The notes under the pieces are model-generated. The model saw nothing but the letters and a program-made list of their open reading frames with translations. It searched no databases and had not been told where the DNA came from. A program made the position numbers and the translations under genes. Positions 8,792-20,487 of a DNA stretch of 64,000 nt are shown here, piece after piece (the stretch's first letter is position 1; each line of letters opens with the position of its first letter). Source of the stretch: Rhizodiscina lignyota (lineage: Eukaryota; Ascomycota; Dothideomycetes; Aulographales; Rhizodiscinaceae); NCBI GenBank assembly GCA_010015805.1, contig ML978132.1, positions 496,001 through 560,000 of the forward strand. Direction: 5' to 3'.

Positions 8792-10427
8792 TCATACGTC
8801 CCAAGTAGGAAATCGAGGAGGATAACCAGTAAGTTTGAATATTTCGAAACTGTCGTATCGGGCCAAATTTTTGGGCCACCTCCGGCAGGATTCCATTGCC
8901 ATGGAATGCGGTAGAGAAATGTCCGACCGTCCTAAGAGCTTTACCAGCGCAGGAGTAGTCTTGTACATTGGATCGAATACAACGAGATTTCGTGAGCCAT
9001 TGCGCCTTTTTTCTAGTCCAACTATGGTGAGAGAGTGTTGTGGCCGCTGGAGATAAATCGGTGGGAGGCCAGTCCGGTGAACTTTGGTCTTCTTGTCCTC
9101 CTCCTGGTCTGGCACAGCGCTTGTGAAGTACGATTCGACGTTATCAAGCAAATTCTCGTATGCCTTGTGACCGTCGTTCATGTCGTGGAAGCTCTCGCTA
9201 GTGCAGGGAATATCAAGACTGCGAAACAACGCAAAGACCTTTGGCAGTTAGCATCAATATAGTAGAGGCTGGGTATGAATGCCGAAGTACCTCTGGTGTT
9301 CCAATATATTTTCTCGTGCCTTTAATCCCACCAGTCTGTTGCCGAGCGAAGGCACCAATCCCCTTGTCCCAGGCCTGTTCAATGGCGTCTTGTAGTTTTG
9401 GTATGCCTGGCGTACGTCCCGTGAATTTGTCATAGCCCGGTGCCTTTGCGCCTTGAAGGTAGGAGACCAGCATCTGAATGTTTCGATATCCGCAGAAGCC
9501 ACCCTCATTTGGGGAGGAGAAGATGTGCAATACCGCTGGGTTGCAGTAGAAAGCTTCGTGGACATCCCGGTCGCTGGATGACAGTTGAGCAAGCACTGGT
9601 ACAAGTCCAGCCGTCTCATTCTCAACGGTCTCTTGGGTTATGAGCGTGCCGTTGCGACTTATCTTCGTTGTCTTGGTTATCTTTGGCCCGGCCATAAGCT
9701 GCTTCCATAGCCGATCAGGCATCCGCTCTTCGAAGGCATGTGGACCGAGCTCCCGTTTCTGAAGTATACATGAGTCTGGGTTTTGACAGTCGTTAGTGGG
9801 AAGGTGTAAACTTACGCCAAGTCTCACTGGACGCTCGTCGTGGTCCCTCCTTGCTCTTTTCCTGCGACGGGAGTCTTCTTCCCTGTCCCTTTTGGACTTT
9901 GAAGGTGTATCCATAGATTCTGTCGATTCTCCAGGAGAGTCGTAGACTGCATGACGAAGGTACGGCGAAACGGCTGTAGAAAAGTGCTTCTGAATGAAAG
10001 CCGGCGAAGAAGTGTGCTCCGGGTCAGCGCCCTCCAACATAGAAGACTGCCACTTCATTTTCGCTTTGAGCATATCAGAGGATGAGGATATCGATGAAGA
10101 ATGATGAACAGAAGAAGAGTCGTGCTGCTCTTCAAGAGTGACACGCTCTGCGAGATGCAGATCGAGGTGCTCGTTGAGATCAGAAAGAAGAACTTGTTCG
10201 CCGCAGTCTGACTCTGGGCAGTCAACATACTGCTCAGAGAGGTCATCGCGATCCATTTGTTGATTGGGAGGCTGAAGTAGTTGCGACTCATCCCCATTGG
10301 CAGCAGCTGCACCGCGTGAAACAAACGGAGAGTCGTCGGTGTGCAGCTCTTCAATATGAAGCATCAGAAAGTATTCATCCGCATCATTGAAGTCGCAGAA
10401 AGGACAGCTGAGCGTATTGGGAGCCAT
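8792..10427 (-). CDS. Peptidase C78 (ZUFSP/ZUP1-like) deubiquitinase
   Basis: Exons 9816-10427, 9291-9758 and 8792-9238 give 508 residues. The ATG at 10427 has a good context. The N-terminus has a C2H2-like finger (CPFCDFNDADEYFLMLHIEELH), a second C/H cluster (CPESDCGEQVLLSDLNEHLDLH) and a basic nuclear-type stretch. The C-terminal C78 domain has the catalytic cysteine in GGFCGYRNIQML, the histidine in QHSLTIVGLE and the aspartate in VVFDPMYK. Family members cleave K63-linked ubiquitin chains (ZUP1) or UFM1 (UFSP), and the zinc fingers favour ZUP1. The first intron (9759-9815, 57 bp) has no stop and is a multiple of three, so it can be retained in frame; splicing it gives GKRELGPHAFEERMP, the expected C78 start. 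The second has a TGCTAAC branch site. The gene may extend further through a donor at 8797. Confidence 0.9.
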
Positions 10428-12178
10428 CTTTCTGTGTGACGATGGAAGATATGAGTGTGGATGTTGGGTGATTAATTCGGTGGTGTATGAAGTAGGGGAC
10501 ACAACGTTGAGTCTGGGCGGCAGTTTGATCTCTTGATGCCTGCGTTGCACATGATCGATGCTTTCAACCTTTGTTCTGGCTGTATGACGCAAATGCAACG
10601 CAAAGCAAAATGTTTGGAGATGGAAGGTTGAGGCTGATGCTGGAAATGTAAAGCGTCGTCGTCACGCTTGCCGAAAACGGAAGCGAGCGAAATGTTGGAA
10701 GTCACACCGGTGAGGCTTCGTTGGGCAAGTATATCGCTTTGTTGTTTCAGGGCGCTTTAACCGCTCAGTCACATCTCCACAGGAGCAAGTGATATGCCAG
10801 AGTCCACCGCACCACGCATATTACATTGACTTTGCGAGGACGGACACGTGGTTTGTCTTGGAATTAGGGTTAGCCCACGGAGCATTCTATCGATGGAGTT
10901 TACGATATCTATACCGATCATATTCGGATTAGTGTCAAAATTTCGCGGCGGAAATGCCAAGATCGGTTGGCGCTAATCTCAATAAAGTACGTGTAAACTT
11001 CGCTGCCAGAGTTTCGGAAAGCTCCGTATGGTTGGCCTCGGAAAACTCCGGCACTGAATGACGCCAAGACTTCTTGCTGTATAAATACACCAATCTCTCC
11101 TCTTTTTCTCCAGCTCTACCCCATCACTCATGCCAATTCCCTTTTCCTTCAGTCCAGCCACTGCCCATCCTCTCGTATCTCCTTTCTCACTTCTAGGTTG
11201 CGCTTTGCGGTTTGGCGAGTCCAATTCCACAAGGATGAGCTTGAGGCGTCTATTACGTACTGAGTTTTAGACGAAGCTTGCCACCTTCGATGAGGACAAA
11301 CCTGCTGCCGCGTATCCTTTCTCTTTGTCTCCCCCCCATCTCTCTCTTCCAGGTTGCGCTTTGCGGTTTGGCGAGTCCAATTCCACAAGGATGAGCTTGA
11401 GGCGTCTATTTGGACGAAGCTTGCCACCTTCGATGCGGACAAACCTGCTGCGGCGTATCCTCTCTCTTTGTCTCCTATCCACTGCCCCCTTTGGCTTTGA
11501 GAAGATGGTGGAGATGCTGCCGCTAGGCTTTCGACGTTCGTGTCGCCGGTATTTGCACTACCTCCGGCTTGACGCGAACACACTTCATGCTTTCAATTAT
11601 TTTTTTTCATTAAGTGCTCTCTGCCTTGTGCGGGGGCTTGACGAAGAGGATGGTCCATGTAAGAGCGCCAGCTTGACTGTCGCGCTTTGAGCAGTTGCCC
11701 ACCAAGAGGCTGCTTTTCATCGAGTGAATTCTGGTGTTTCCCTGACTACGCGCTACCTGAGCTCTGCCTCTTCCCGCTGTGAAAGTGAGACCCTTGAAAC
11801 ATTGACGTGAACTGAAATACATCCTCCATCAGTAAATAAACTACGCGAGGAACGGTCTCGTTGTTTACGTGAAGCAAGGCGTGCGCCGCTGATCAGCGGC
11901 AGAACTCTGCAGTCACTTGAGCATACAAAATTTCAACTGCCATCGAATTTTTCAGCTCTGACCCACGCCCATTCTGCATGCCCTCTTCGGCAAAGGGAGT
12001 GTTCACACTACGGATGTGGCTGCCTAGCGCTGTTCCAGTCAACACTCGGTCAAAATCTTGACCAACGCCTCTTCAAAGCTTCCGCACCTCACAAAAACGC
12101 TGGCACCAGACTCATCAACCCAGCTATCTCCATTCTCGTACCTTCCTCCTGTCCTTGAGGACGAGTCTTTCAATTATC
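10428..12178. other. Divergent intergenic region with tandem duplication
   Basis: 1.75 kb between two divergently transcribed genes (C78 peptidase and F-box-like protein). It holds a TATAAATA at 11080-11087 in plus orientation, followed 44 bp later by a 47-codon frame that I do not accept as a gene, and the tandem duplication listed separately. No other gene is seen. Confidence 0.5.
11195..11490. repeat. Tandem duplication, about 156 bp unit, two copies
   Basis: Copy 1 spans 11195-11350 and copy 2 spans 11351 to about 11490. Both begin AGGTTGCGCTTTGCGG, share a run of roughly 60 identical bases, and later share CGAAGCTTGCCACCTTCGAT. Copy 1 has about 13 extra bases near 11254-11270. A degenerate pyrimidine-rich third piece may precede copy 1. 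The unit is flanked by CT-rich tracts. The copies are close enough to suggest a recent duplication. Confidence 0.9.
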
Positions 12179-14148: not shown

Positions 14149-17100
14149 TCAGGAAACAAAGAACAACCTCATCGCCCCACCAACCCTCTTCCTACAAACC
14201 GGGCACGTATCCACTCTCTTCGCGCACCCCAAACAGGCAACCACATGTCCGCAGTCCCAAAACGCCGCGTCTGCCAATTGCCCCTCATCCCAGCAGATCC
14301 TGCAAATCCGCTCCGCCTCCTGCGCCTGCGCCCAGTACGTCACGCCCTCGCCAAACTTCTTGTCGCCCTTCCAGTTGCCCTCGTATCGATTCGTCGTCGA
14401 CGCTTCCGTGAACGTGCCGTGACCCGAGCGCTGATTGCTAGCAAAAGAACCAGTATACGTGTCACCATTGCTGTACGTCAGACTGCCCTGGCCATGACGG
14501 TCGTCGAGGACAAATTCGCCAGTGTACTGCGTGCCGTCGAAGGAGATCTTTGTGCCGGCGCCGTGCGCGAGGCCGGCCAGCATGTCGCCGCTGTAGTACT
14601 CAGAGCTGAAGTAGTCGAAGGTGAAGGTGCCTTGGTACAGGTGCGGGAAGTTGCGGCGGTGTGATTCGAACTGGAGGTATTGCTGCGGGGTGGTTGCTTT
14701 ACCTTCCGCGCGGAGCGTCAGCTTATTTTCGGGGGAGATAGGGAAGGCGGCGATGAGGACGCATGTGTCGTGCAAGTCTTCTTGGGCGAACGTCTTTCTG
14801 CGACGACGCGTGAATGCCTTGACGAGGTCCTCTTCTTCGTAGATCTCGGGTAAGGAGTCTGAATCAGTATCTGGCAGAACCTCGAGCAGTCTCGCCACAG
14901 TACGGTCCAGGCGGGCCTTCCTACTCTCGATAAAACTGCCCTTGGGGATCATAGTCTGCTTCTCCGCGTCGAAGACCTTCAGGAAGAAGAATATCTCATC
15001 GTTGGAAGAAGAAGTTGTTCCGCTTAATCCCCGTCCACTTGACAGAACGATGGCGTTCGGGACCGCAATGTCCATGCCTGGAATTCCCATTGGAGCAGCT
15101 TGGACGATCGATGTTCCTGGTGGGGGAGGCGCGCCATTCGAGCCTTGGAGGGCGGGGATCTCGATGATAGTTACTGGCCCGCCCGATCGTCTTGCGAGTT
15201 CTTGCTCCTCTGGGGAGATGTCCGCATCGCTCATGAGAGTATCGTGAATCGCAGGAATCGTAGGGATCGGCATATTTCCACCCAGTAAAGCGTCAATCGG
15301 AACATCTACAATTGCAAGGCCCGTGTTCACTGATACACCCCCAGGTATGCCATCAGGTAGAGCTTGCGAGCTAGAGGGATTCGAATTCGCACTGCCTTCC
15401 TGCTTGTTGGTTTCGGGCGGTGGAGGGGGAGGAGGAGGAAGATCCTTCTTATCGATGACATGCAGCCATAGCCTCCTCTCTTCTGTCCTGGCAGCCAGAT
15501 CACCAACTGTCCACTCCGGCTCCTGGCCCTTGCTTTTACTATCTGACAAATCAAAACTGCTGGCGGACAGTAAATTCGGCCTAAGCTCTGTACCTGCCAA
15601 CGAGTCCATGATCCATAGCCTGCATTGCCGAGGGTCTTCTACGCCGGGCACAACACTCGCAATCTTTTCCTTGATCCCCTTCGGGCCAACATTCGAAGGG
15701 AAGAAGATATCGTAGACAAACTCGGACTGAATCGGAGAACCCTTCTCGAACACATCAAATGTGCCAGGGCCGTAGTGCTGTAGGAAGACGCGAGAATCGA
15801 TGATCTGGAACTCGTGCGTTGTGGGCTCACTCTCTGCCTGCATGTCCTCGACCTTCTCGTCTCCCTCTGCTTCACCATTCTTATCAATGGCCATGTCGTT
15901 CTCAGCCGCAATGTCCCTGTCGAGCTTCGCCTCGTCTTCAAGCCAAGCAGGTACGTCCCATACTTGCTCGTTCTTGCCATCGAATGCATCCTCCGCGACA
16001 TCATCCATGAGATACGTGACAAGGTATGCAACCGACTTCCTCTCGTCGGACTGGCTCGGATTCTCAACACCTTCATTCGCAGCAATGGCCTGTCTCTTCG
16101 TCAAGCATACAACCCTGTTCTCGAGCTTCGTGTCCTCGAAAGCATACCACTTGCCATTTGGACCAAGTGGTCTAACATTTGCCAGATACTGATTCGACTG
16201 GTGGCCCTCTTTATGCACCACGAAGCTGTGCAGCGTATAACGTACGTCATTGACGCTGATATGATCGTCCAAGGCCATCTTATCAACGACCTTCCGCCAT
16301 TTCCTCTCACCCGTGTTGACGAACTCTTGCCTTTCAATCTCGATCTGCAGGGCGTACGGCAAAGCCTTGTTGGATGCGACAATGCCCTCCGTGCCGACAA
16401 CTGCATCCTGCATGCTCTTGAACTTCTTCGGACTGACGCGATACGTCGGCTGGCACGTCCTCCGGTCCTTCATCGGGCCAAACAGTCGGTCTAACGCGCT
16501 GTTTAGATGCGTGTCTTCGAGCTCAGCCTGAAGCTTAGTCCTCAGCGCCTCCTGAACCTGCACGACATCCCAATGATCCATCGCCATATCAACACCATAC
16601 CACGCCAACGCATCTATGACCTCCTCAAGACTAACGTACTTCGCAGACTTCGGGGACAGATCCGGCGTGCGCATGCAATATAACACCTTCAGCAGGCTCT
16701 TTAATAGCGGCTTTGGCCTCTCCCTCGGGTTGATCACTGGGTCTGGCACGATCTGTGTCGCCTCGTAAAGCATTTCCCTGAACGGCATGAGCATCATCCA
16801 CCCGGCGATCGCAGAGATGAAATTTCCATCCTGCGCTGGCGCATTCGGCCTCAACCTGCCCATGCCCAGACCCTGTACGCCGGTCATCGCAAAACTGTCC
16901 CATGGATTTTGCTCGAGCGGATGCTCCCACAGGCAGCCTGTGGTATCTTCTACAATACGGATGTATGCGATGAAAGCAAGTTGATCGTTACGCAGGAGAG
17001 CCTGGCGCTGGCCGTGGTGACGCGTCTGGATCTCGTAGTAGGGACCATGGAAGCGAGTGAAGCCCCAGTCGGTTTGTTTGGGAGTGAAGCGATGAGTGCA

Positions 17101-18381
17101 TGGGCGCCAGAAGTTTACGCGGGGCTCTGCGGGGTTGTATAGGACGACGGAAACTTGGGCGGACACGCCGTGGGAGCGGGGTGAGGTGTGACCGGGGAGG
17201 ACAGGGAGAGGTAGGTCTTCGGAGTCTGTATCTGCTTCTGATGAGGTTTTGTTGAACGAGTTTGAAGACGATGGGTTCGAGCTCGACGCGGAGGTATTGC
17301 TGTCGGCCGAAGTCTCCATACTCGCGCACTCGACATACACACTCAGGAACTCTGTGTCGTTGCCACGCGGGTAGAACTTGATATTCCACTCATGCCCACC
17401 GATATTGACTCTAGGACTCTTCATCACCAGCTCATGATTCGGGTTCTCCTTCGTGCCATTGTAGTGCTCGACCAACCACTCAATCTTGCCTGTCGGGCCA
17501 GGAGAGAACTCCGGATCTTCCAGCTTCGTAAATGTCTTCGCTTCCCAGTGCTCATGGTCATGTGCGCTGTGCTCGGTCTGCTCCTCGATCTCTTTCATTT
17601 CTCGCTCGTCGGGGATAGAGGTATCTTCGTGAATTGGGTGCCATGAAGGAGCAGAGTCGTCATCGTCGGAGGATTCGCGGTTTTGGTTCGAATCGTTATG
17701 CTCAGGCGGAGGACTTGGAGCTCGGGAGGACGTAGGTGATCTTGAGTGGTCTCGCAATGGTGGAGGAGGAATACCTCCATTAGTCTGAGGCGAAGAAGAA
17801 GCATTAGTAGTAGCAGCATTTCCGGTAGTTGCGGTGCTAAGTTCGCGGAGAACATCTGGCGGTGGAGGCGGAATTACATCTGCAGGAGGGCCAGTAGCTT
17901 CAGCAGGCTGAATGACCCCATCAGGCGTAGTATCCATAGCGTCGTCAGAGTCAGAATCAGACGGAGAATGTGAACCAGCAGTGTTTCCAGAAGAGTCTTC
18001 CACCACCTCTGTGATGTTAACCTCGTTCGTGTCGGCATCCATCACTTCCATGCGGCCGTCATCTCTGTCATGGTTCTGACCTTGTGGAGGGAGAGTGAGG
18101 GACATGCTCATATCGACATCTTCCGGGGGTGCCTGAGGCTGCGATGACGCCATGTGCTGGAAATGTTGAGGATCGGTGGGAGGGTGGTAGGTCGGAGCTG
18201 GTGAATGTTGCGGAGAGAAGGATGGCGGGCTTGGTGAGCGGGGAGAGAAGAGCAGCGGCGGAGGTTCGGCAGTTTCCACGCTCATGTTTGTGGAAGTGTT
18301 AGGGAAACGGGAGGTAGGCTGTGAATGGTTTGTGTTGCGTGAATGTGGAGGTGAGCGGAGCTCGTCGTTTGCAAGGCTCAC
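14149..18381 (-). CDS. MATH - inactive USP7-like - UBL - MORN - RING protein
   Basis: An intronless 1410-residue frame. After a disordered Pro/Ser/acidic N-terminus (1-290), residues about 310-485 resemble the USP7 MATH/TRAF domain (WNIKFYPRG, THRFTPKQTDWGFTRF). Residues about 495-790 follow the USP7 catalytic fold: MDHWDVVQVQEALRTKL aligns with the SFMQHDVQELCRVLLD box, and YTLHSFVVHKEG...KWYAFED...AYLVTY aligns with the C-terminal box. The NQGATCYMNS cysteine box is unrecognisable and the catalytic GHY reads NQY, so it should be inactive. FFFLKVFDAEKQT (about 1128) resembles a USP7 ubiquitin-like domain. MORN repeats follow at about 1247-1330 (YTGEF, YTGSF, YEGNW), then a C3HC4 RING (CRICWDEG...CGHVVAC...CPVC) at about 1353-1397. 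It is probably an E3 ligase using an old deubiquitinase scaffold for binding. Domain calls are by motif memory. Confidence 0.85.
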   Translation of the reverse strand: MSLANDELRSPPHSRNTNHSQPTSRFPNTSTNMSVETAEPPPLLFSPRSPSPPSFSPQHSPAPTYHPPTDPQHFQHMASSQPQAPPEDVDMSMSLTLPPQGQNHDRDDGRMEVMDADTNEVNITEVVEDSSGNTAGSHSPSDSDSDDAMDTTPDGVIQPAEATGPPADVIPPPPPDVLRELSTATTGNAATTNASSSPQTNGGIPPPPLRDHSRSPTSSRAPSPPPEHNDSNQNRESSDDDDSAPSWHPIHEDTSIPDEREMKEIEEQTEHSAHDHEHWEAKTFTKLEDPEFSPGPTGKIEWLVEHYNGTKENPNHELVMKSPRVNIGGHEWNIKFYPRGNDTEFLSVYVECASMETSADSNTSASSSNPSSSNSFNKTSSEADTDSEDLPLPVLPGHTSPRSHGVSAQVSVVLYNPAEPRVNFWRPCTHRFTPKQTDWGFTRFHGPYYEIQTRHHGQRQALLRNDQLAFIAYIRIVEDTTGCLWEHPLEQNPWDSFAMTGVQGLGMGRLRPNAPAQDGNFISAIAGWMMLMPFREMLYEATQIVPDPVINPRERPKPLLKSLLKVLYCMRTPDLSPKSAKYVSLEEVIDALAWYGVDMAMDHWDVVQVQEALRTKLQAELEDTHLNSALDRLFGPMKDRRTCQPTYRVSPKKFKSMQDAVVGTEGIVASNKALPYALQIEIERQEFVNTGERKWRKVVDKMALDDHISVNDVRYTLHSFVVHKEGHQSNQYLANVRPLGPNGKWYAFEDTKLENRVVCLTKRQAIAANEGVENPSQSDERKSVAYLVTYLMDDVAEDAFDGKNEQVWDVPAWLEDEAKLDRDIAAENDMAIDKNGEAEGDEKVEDMQAESEPTTHEFQIIDSRVFLQHYGPGTFDVFEKGSPIQSEFVYDIFFPSNVGPKGIKEKIASVVPGVEDPRQCRLWIMDSLAGTELRPNLLSASSFDLSDSKSKGQEPEWTVGDLAARTEERRLWLHVIDKKDLPPPPPPPPETNKQEGSANSNPSSSQALPDGIPGGVSVNTGLAIVDVPIDALLGGNMPIPTIPAIHDTLMSDADISPEEQELARRSGGPVTIIEIPALQGSNGAPPPPGTSIVQAAPMGIPGMDIAVPNAIVLSSGRGLSGTTSSSNDEIFFFLKVFDAEKQTMIPKGSFIESRKARLDRTVARLLEVLPDTDSDSLPEIYEEEDLVKAFTRRRRKTFAQEDLHDTCVLIAAFPISPENKLTLRAEGKATTPQQYLQFESHRRNFPHLYQGTFTFDYFSSEYYSGDMLAGLAHGAGTKISFDGTQYTGEFVLDDRHGQGSLTYSNGDTYTGSFASNQRSGHGTFTEASTTNRYEGNWKGDKKFGEGVTYWAQAQEAERICRICWDEGQLADAAFWDCGHVVACLGCAKRVDTCPVCRKRVGGAMRLFFVS

Positions 18382-19259: not shown

Positions 19260-20487
19260 CTACGTCGTTCCTCTGGATGAATCTGTCGGAGCAGAATCCC
19301 TCGATGGTTTGGCGAAAGTCCCAGCTACAATGAGTGGAAAGGCGACTGTTGCCTCGGCGTAGACCTGTTAAATGTATCAGCATTATATTACCCACGCGCA
19401 CCAGTGACCGTCAGCACCTTTACACTATCGCCATCCTTCCTGATCTTCCCCCAGCTGACCGCCTCATCTGGCCTTGCACCAGCATCGCTCCCATCGAACT
19501 CTTGCGCTGTGTTGATATACACAGCGTGCTCTGCTCCATTCCGCATCAAAAACGCATTCGCAATATGATGCTTCACCACACCCCCTCCTAAGATTATCAT
19601 ACCTCCCCTCTTCGCCCAATTGGCCAAAGAATTGATCTTCCGAATATCTTCAACGATATCGATGCTCAGCATTTTTGGGGAAGTCTTGAAGGTGTGGAAG
19701 TACAGCATGTCGCCCAGAGAACCGTCCGTCAGAGCGGGGCAGAATACAGGGATATTGTTCTTGTATGCCCAATAGTAGACGCTCTCCTCGTTATTGATCT
19801 CTTTGCCCAAGCGATGTATAACTTTCGAAGGAGTCCAGCGTACACGGCTGTCCTCGTCCAACAGTCGCGTGCTCTCTTGCTCCTCGAGCATCTTGTCGAA
19901 GATTGGTAATATCCAGTCCTCGAATTTTGTATAGTTTTCGTTGGGCACGATAAGGTTACCTATTCGGTTCCAGCCTTTATCGCGCAGCGCTACTCCAGAG
20001 TATGTGAAGGAGCCATGATACGTTGGCCCCAGGCATTTGATAAAGTCTTCCTCGACCCCTCCAGCAGTCGTGACTATAGCAGATACATGCTTGTGTTGTA
20101 CCAAGTATCGGAATATATCGCGGAGACCGGACGATATCATATTCGAAGTGTAGCCGAGGAAGATGGTTGTGCCTTCGTGTGTCTCTGGGTCGCGCCATGA
20201 TCTCTACTTTTCGCAACTGAGCCCATTGCCATGTGAGTCTCAAATGCAGAGAACCTTACCATGTCATTGATTATTCTGATTGCTTCTCCTATCGAAGAAC
20301 CCTGGAAACCCATGTTGGATATGCCCGCCAGCAGCTCCTCTACCGGTATGCTGCGGTCCGCATACTTGTTGAAGTCGATCCCGGAGACTGTCCGCGTGCC
20401 TTCTGGTATCGGCTCCGAAGCCATGAGGACGGCATCGGTCGCGAGTGATGGAGCTGCATTCGCAGTCCCGCCATTAGACTGTGACAT
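19260..20487 (-). CDS. DYS1: Deoxyhypusine synthase
   Basis: Exons 20260-20487, 19418-20203 and 19260-19364 give 372 residues, the normal family length. The enzyme transfers the butylamine group of spermidine to a lysine of eIF5A in the cytosol, using NAD. Diagnostic stretches are [40 protein letters not shown] and the catalytic lysine in SWGKIRKDG. Splicing at 20259 joins INDM to [12 protein letters not shown], as in other family members. The second donor is GTGCTG at 19417, non-consensus, but it joins SVK to [17 protein letters not shown], the conserved end. Reading through instead gives an early stop after VLTVTGARG. The start (MSQSNGG at 20487) is the first methionine before the conserved part. 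It is divergent from the Snt1-like gene. Confidence 0.96.

Follow-up and report, generated by a model that had tools for sequence, protein, structure and literature searches.

A USP7-like protein of Rhizodiscina lignyota with a seemingly dead protease site, MORN repeats and a RING finger: a candidate ubiquitin ligase

What does a protein do that is laid out like the deubiquitinase (DUB) USP7, lacks the catalytic residues of that enzyme and ends in a RING finger? The question is raised by a gene of the dothideomycete Rhizodiscina lignyota in a 64,000-nucleotide stretch of DNA (hereafter the window), which corresponds to positions 496001-560000 of contig ML978132.1 (contig C12; the genome comprises 33.4 Mb in 29 contigs). 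The gene is a single open frame on the minus strand, 1410 codons long not counting its stop (window 14149-18381; Table 1), in which the first-pass annotation, made from the letters of the DNA, had seen a DUB that lost catalysis and was turned into a ubiquitin ligase scaffold. With a probability of roughly 0.6, we favor the reading that a duplicate of USP7/Ubp15 gave up its DUB catalysis and evolved into a ubiquitin ligase of the RING type, a reading built on sequence comparison.

The frame itself was borne out as real, with two corrections: its strand, previously unstated, is minus, and the count of 1410 residues begins at a GTG right after a stop codon and not at an ATG, the first in-frame ATG being residue 33, with AAC preceding it. 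The fractions of guanine plus cytosine at codon positions 1, 2 and 3 are 0.58, 0.45 and 0.62, a coding-like profile. An assembly that joined two genes, or a pseudogene in decay, would be compatible with the use of one genome only; a protein search of that genome returned the gene itself and an 80-residue MATH match in its USP7 (see below), and gives no independent check on the assembly because the same assembly is returned. Against such an artefact speaks the 4.2 kb stop-free frame with its coding-type codon-position bias, and we regard it as highly improbable, the least likely of the explanations weighed here.

Searched as a whole against Pfam, the protein matches MORN (4e-13), zf-C3HC4_3 (5e-11), MATH_2 (1e-10) and UCH (7e-9), all above cut-offs. 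USP7_ICP0_bdg lies under its cut-off of 27 bits with the whole protein (24.6 bits; 26.2 bits in the genome-wide search) and exceeds it on fragment 858-1256 alone (29.0 bits), and the UCH match rises to 6e-10 on fragment 477-867, where it covers residues 533-755 and profile positions 24-237 of 254. The order of domains, namely MATH (split by a Ser-rich insert at about residues 356-407), a UCH-type USP domain, a weak UBL1-like segment (UBL, ubiquitin-like) and a UBL2/ICP0-binding segment, is the same as in USP7, and MORN repeats with a C-terminal C3HC4 RING occupy the place of its UBL3-5. In PDB searches the whole protein finds MORN1-type proteins, IAP RINGs and USP7 (residues 712-824), and USP7 is recovered again over those same residues when the USP piece serves as query (E 1e-5); the MATH piece reaches USP7 only weakly, at E 0.07, and with just the UBL2 fragment as query no USP7 appears among the matches as far as E 10. 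Two USP7 boxes read earlier differ in their letters from those first given: one is MDHWDVVQVQEALRT and not QHDVQEL, and the other is KWYAFED and not KWxxFDD.

The genome also holds an ordinary USP7/Ubp15, on contig C10, with Cys, His and Asp intact (cysteine box GLKNQGATCYLNS, GHY and FDDD) and a catalytic exon that matches PDB USP7 chains at 3.6e-87. Genome-wide searches with Pfam models, whose match counts are lower bounds, report at least two places for MATH_2, the 1410-codon gene and the contig C10 gene, and the same two for USP7_ICP0_bdg, with the 1410-codon gene under the cut-off. When pieces of this USP7 were compared with the 1410-codon protein, using 300 shuffles each, the MATH (z 20.4), catalytic (z 11.9) and UBL2 (z 10.0) pieces each scored better than all shuffles (0/300 as good). 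Two off-register controls gave no signal, with 219/300 and 246/300 shuffles as good, and nor did the UBL3-5 piece against residues 1120-1256 (227/300). BLAST of the pieces, with E-values for a single subject and no composition correction, gives 9e-15 for MATH, 2e-7 for the catalytic domain and 4e-4 for UBL2; for the last two phmmer gives low scores (6.5 bits for the catalytic domain, 4.3 bits for UBL2) where BLAST and the shuffles are clear, and identity to the pieces is 20-23%. Taken together, the Pfam families, the domain order and the shuffle z-scores support the earlier suggestion of USP7 ancestry, with the MORN repeats and RING standing at the UBL3-5 position.

Set against the intact USP7 of the same genome, the 1410-codon protein appears to have a dead protease site. 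Of 27 MAFFT settings, 18 pair the catalytic Cys with Gly519, 6 pair it with Asp518 and 3 leave it facing a gap, and independently of any alignment there is no cysteine anywhere in residues 484-568. A misaligned cysteine box was considered and rejected because the nearest candidates lie outside this span, C483 pairing with the last part of the MATH domain and C569 lying past the box. The catalytic His corresponds to Gln731 and the Asp to Glu749 in 27 of 27 settings each. Hence the cysteine box described as unrecognisable and the GHY said to read NQY both stand, and the claimed loss of catalysis is reinforced by a third change that had gone unnoticed, that of the Asp, since the box reads KWYAFED. 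The fingers span 44 residues as opposed to 78 in the genome's own USP7, about 34 fewer, and it is therefore doubtful that this putative pseudo-USP domain holds ubiquitin in the normal way. Full USP7 activity requires UBL4-5 and the C-terminal tail (PMC6335408, PMC12566277); UBL4-5 and the activating tail are absent here, where MORN repeats and RING come after UBL2. Like the change of the Asp, the shorter fingers and the missing activating module go beyond the losses seen in the first-pass annotation. Could the protein nonetheless be a DUB that works through unusual residues? For USP39, which is classed as a pseudo-DUB, several studies (cited in PMC10919355) raise the possibility of activity by way of residues that are not conserved, but with the triad gone, residues 484-568 free of Cys, the fingers shortened and the activating UBL4-5 missing, we consider this very improbable.

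The other end of the protein, in contrast to its protease site, looks alive. All eight zinc ligands of the RING are present (C1360, C1363, C1377, H1379, C1383, C1386, C1393 and C1396), and its best PDB matches are the RINGs of BIRC3 and BIRC2 (cIAP2 and cIAP1) and XIAP, at E 3e-10. The alignment to the BIRC2/BIRC3 RINGs is gapless from the last cysteine pair onward and sets Arg1397 at the linchpin place, with Arg1405 at +8 and Phe1407 at +10. These are the offsets of Arg614 and Phe616 from the linchpin Arg606 in cIAP1, where the tail works in trans in a dimer (PMC6349121). The Arg at the linchpin is not a given, because XIAP has Tyr there (PMC12326332). Residues used by an active dimeric ubiquitin ligase (E3) thus appear to be kept, and this lends weight to the proposed conversion into a ligase scaffold, with ligase activity itself as a prediction. 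An alternative is that the protein is a non-catalytic regulator, which vies with the active USP7 for MATH ligands or attaches to USP7 itself, and whose RING is structural. Roles in allosteric activation or as parts of scaffolds have been described for pseudo-DUBs (PMC10919355), and the retained MATH pocket motif would suit such a role; yet a purely structural RING need not keep the linchpin Arg and the Arg/Phe tail, both of which are kept, and we judge the regulator unlikely.

If the protein is a ligase, its ligands might be sought among those of USP7. The DWGF stretch is kept in its MATH domain, aligned both to USP7 and to the genome's own USP7 (GDWGFTRF), and Trp439 corresponds to USP7 position 165 by offset from the full-length chain 9plr_C. 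In USP7, the W165A change weakens the binding of both MDM2 and p53, and KxxxK ligands bind to an acidic pocket of UBL1-2 (PMC4624675). At the four positions D758, E759, D762 and D764 of USP7, two alignments joined give Glu, Asp, Asp and Cys in the 1410-codon protein, so this pocket is partly kept; the genome's own USP7 has Ser, Glu, Glu and Asp there. A basic run, TRRRRKTF (residues 1191-1198; window 14788-14811, minus), which could be a nuclear signal, also lies within the UBL2 segment.

The MORN repeats (Pfam, 48.8 bits; cut-off 22.5) had been suggested as a membrane link, an idea that is now weakened and appears doubtful. Their best PDB matches are MORN1-type proteins; the study of Trypanosoma brucei MORN1, whose authors solved three MORN1 structures, to which the matched PDB entries presumably belong, found that the protein dimerises, with no binding to membranes or vesicles detected, though single phospholipids are bound (PMC7725318). 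We accordingly disfavor the repeats as a membrane anchor. The window interval 14458-14526 (minus) is the sole place in the 33.4 Mb genome reported by the Pfam MORN model, as the one match among six candidates scored, a count that is a lower bound.

The favored reading, a USP7-derived RING ligase that is probably dimeric, suggests the following course. The MATH pocket and UBL1-2 would continue to bind the sort of ligand that USP7 binds, the dead USP domain would act as a spacer in which ubiquitin is no longer held normally, and the MORN repeats and the RING tail would form a dimer, as MORN dimerisation in T. brucei may indicate (PMC7725318). The tail could then act in trans on the ubiquitin carried by its conjugating enzyme (E2-ubiquitin), as in cIAP1, and the docked ligand would be ubiquitinated. 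Were the active USP7 in the same cell to bind such a ligand too, the two proteins would act on it in opposite ways. Carried further, this becomes a ubiquitin rheostat of two proteins made from one USP7 platform: an active USP7 that removes ubiquitin and a dead, RING-bearing sister that adds it, with similar MATH pockets and with UBL4-5 exchanged for a MORN-RING dimer. We put this extension forward as tentative and doubtful at present.

Several observations weigh against the conversion of a USP7 into a ligase for USP7-type ligands. The UBL1 piece gives a weak shuffle result (z 3.3, with 3/300 shuffles as good); the sequence of a RING alone is no proof of ligase activity; the acidic pocket of UBL2 appears only partly kept; and the MATH domain, about 23% identical to that of the genome's own USP7, contains a long Ser-rich insert, so its ligands may differ from those of USP7. 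Further, one genome was examined, and in it a conserved family and a lineage oddity are not separable; one scan each of a viral and a bacterial/archaeal contig collection with residues 406-837 gave 2 and 10 pattern matches, respectively, of which 0 were confirmed. The divergence also raises the alternative of a RING ligase with ligands unrelated to those of USP7, in which the body inherited from USP7 now serves different partners, as the identity of just 20-23%, the MATH insert and the shortened fingers would permit. Retention of the DWGF stretch and, in part, of the acidic UBL2 pocket speaks against it, and we think this version improbable too.

Each part of the protein has known counterparts. 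It resembles USP7/Ubp15 (the copy on contig C10 and the PDB chains) in the order MATH, USP, UBL2 and in the DWGF of the ligand pocket, and departs from it in the lost triad, the shorter fingers and the MORN repeats and RING in place of UBL3-5 and the tail. It resembles cIAP1, cIAP2 and XIAP in its RING, which has these as best PDB matches and shares the linchpin Arg and the tail Arg/Phe offsets of cIAP1, whereas no BIR family is among the 8 Pfam families listed for the whole protein and its body is USP7-like. USP-type domains without a full active site occur in PAN2 and USP39, which are not known to have RING, MORN or MATH; A20 is not known to have MATH, USP or RING. Within the one open collection searched, where publications were judged mostly by titles and abstract openings, none was found that describes a USP7 without catalysis joined to MORN repeats and a RING. 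Some Aspergillus and Penicillium proteins carry the annotation 'MATH and UCH domain protein', and if these are orthologues, the family has already been named in databases.

The TRIM37 and TRAF ligases combine MATH and RING in a single protein, but with the RING N-terminal and with B-boxes or TRAF zinc fingers, not a USP domain, in the middle (PMC3503706). A20 joins a DUB-fold domain to a zinc finger to which E3 function is ascribed, but its fold is OTU with a catalytic cysteine, and USP39 is a USP-type pseudo-DUB (PMC10919355). MORN1-type proteins share the repeats, for which they are the best PDB matches, though T. brucei MORN1 consists of MORN repeats only (PMC7725318). Yeast UBP15 is assigned to the MATH/USP7 type in a review of fungal DUBs, the main text of which has 0 uses of the words MORN and inactive (PMC9599802). 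Precedents exist, in A20, for a DUB domain and a zinc finger of ligase type in one protein, in TRIM37 and the TRAFs for MATH combined with RING, and in the pseudo-USPs for a USP domain lacking a full active site. The swap of ubiquitin removal for addition, called unusual in the first-pass annotation, is less so given that A20 already combines a DUB domain with such a zinc finger (PMC10919355).

As for the surroundings, a deoxyhypusine synthase gene (window 19388-20140, minus) adjoins the 1410-codon gene, and about 3.5 kb from it lies an open reading frame (window 9213-10598, minus) whose Peptidase_C78 domain (E 9e-22) belongs to the family of UFM1 proteases and K63-type DUBs, among others. Elsewhere in the genome, a UCH-like protein on contig C2 (L028:943-2559, minus; UCH match 2126799-2127782) has Ser for Cys in its cysteine box, NAGGASYINSAIQAL, and farther along carries GHH and a stretch with CDD; it found nothing in PDB by phmmer at E 0.01 and is perhaps a second pseudo-USP. 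On contig C25 (L029; UCH match 64775-65734) a UCH match is followed by an exonuclease-like stretch, in a protein that we take to be PAN2-like.

Table 1. Positions in the window of the features of the 1410-codon gene
Feature	Window position	Strand	Basis or remark
Open frame, 1410 codons plus stop	14149..18381	-	likely start ATG at residue 33 (18283-18285)
MATH (TRAF-like) domain, residues 296-490	16912..17496	-	Pfam MATH_2, two stretches; z 20.4 vs own USP7 MATH
DWGF stretch, residues 438-441	17059..17070	-	alignment to USP7 and own USP7
Putative pseudo-USP domain, residues 491-830	15892..16911	-	Pfam UCH 6e-10; z 11.9
Place of catalytic cysteine box, residues 514-520 (APAQDGN)	16822..16842	-	27 MAFFT settings
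Gln731 at catalytic His place	16189..16191	-	27/27 MAFFT settings; phmmer to USP7 chains
Glu749 at catalytic Asp place	16135..16137	-	27/27 MAFFT settings; phmmer to USP7 chains
Possible UBL1-like segment, residues 856-980 (weak)	15442..15816	-	z 3.3; order fits
Pro-rich linker between UBL-like segments, residues 981-1123	15013..15441	-	sequence
UBL2/USP7_ICP0_bdg segment, residues 1124-1243	14653..15012	-	29.0 bits on fragment; z 10.0
MORN repeats, residues ~1257-1352	14326..14613	-	three stretches by Pfam, four by eye
C3HC4 RING, residues 1357-1400	14182..14313	-	Pfam; IAP RINGs best in PDB
Linchpin Arg1397 and IAP-like tail with Arg1405, Phe1407	14152..14193	-	alignment to BIRC2/BIRC3 RINGs

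If the favored reading is true, the locus would be a clean example from nature of an enzyme family whose chemistry was turned around by a module swap, with the catalytic residues, much of the ubiquitin-holding fingers and the activating UBL4-5 gone, and with both the domain that docks substrates and a ligase module in place. USP7 and its sister would then be a testable pair for opposing ubiquitin enzymes that share ligands, and a gene called a deubiquitinase by domain search could turn out to be the opposite.

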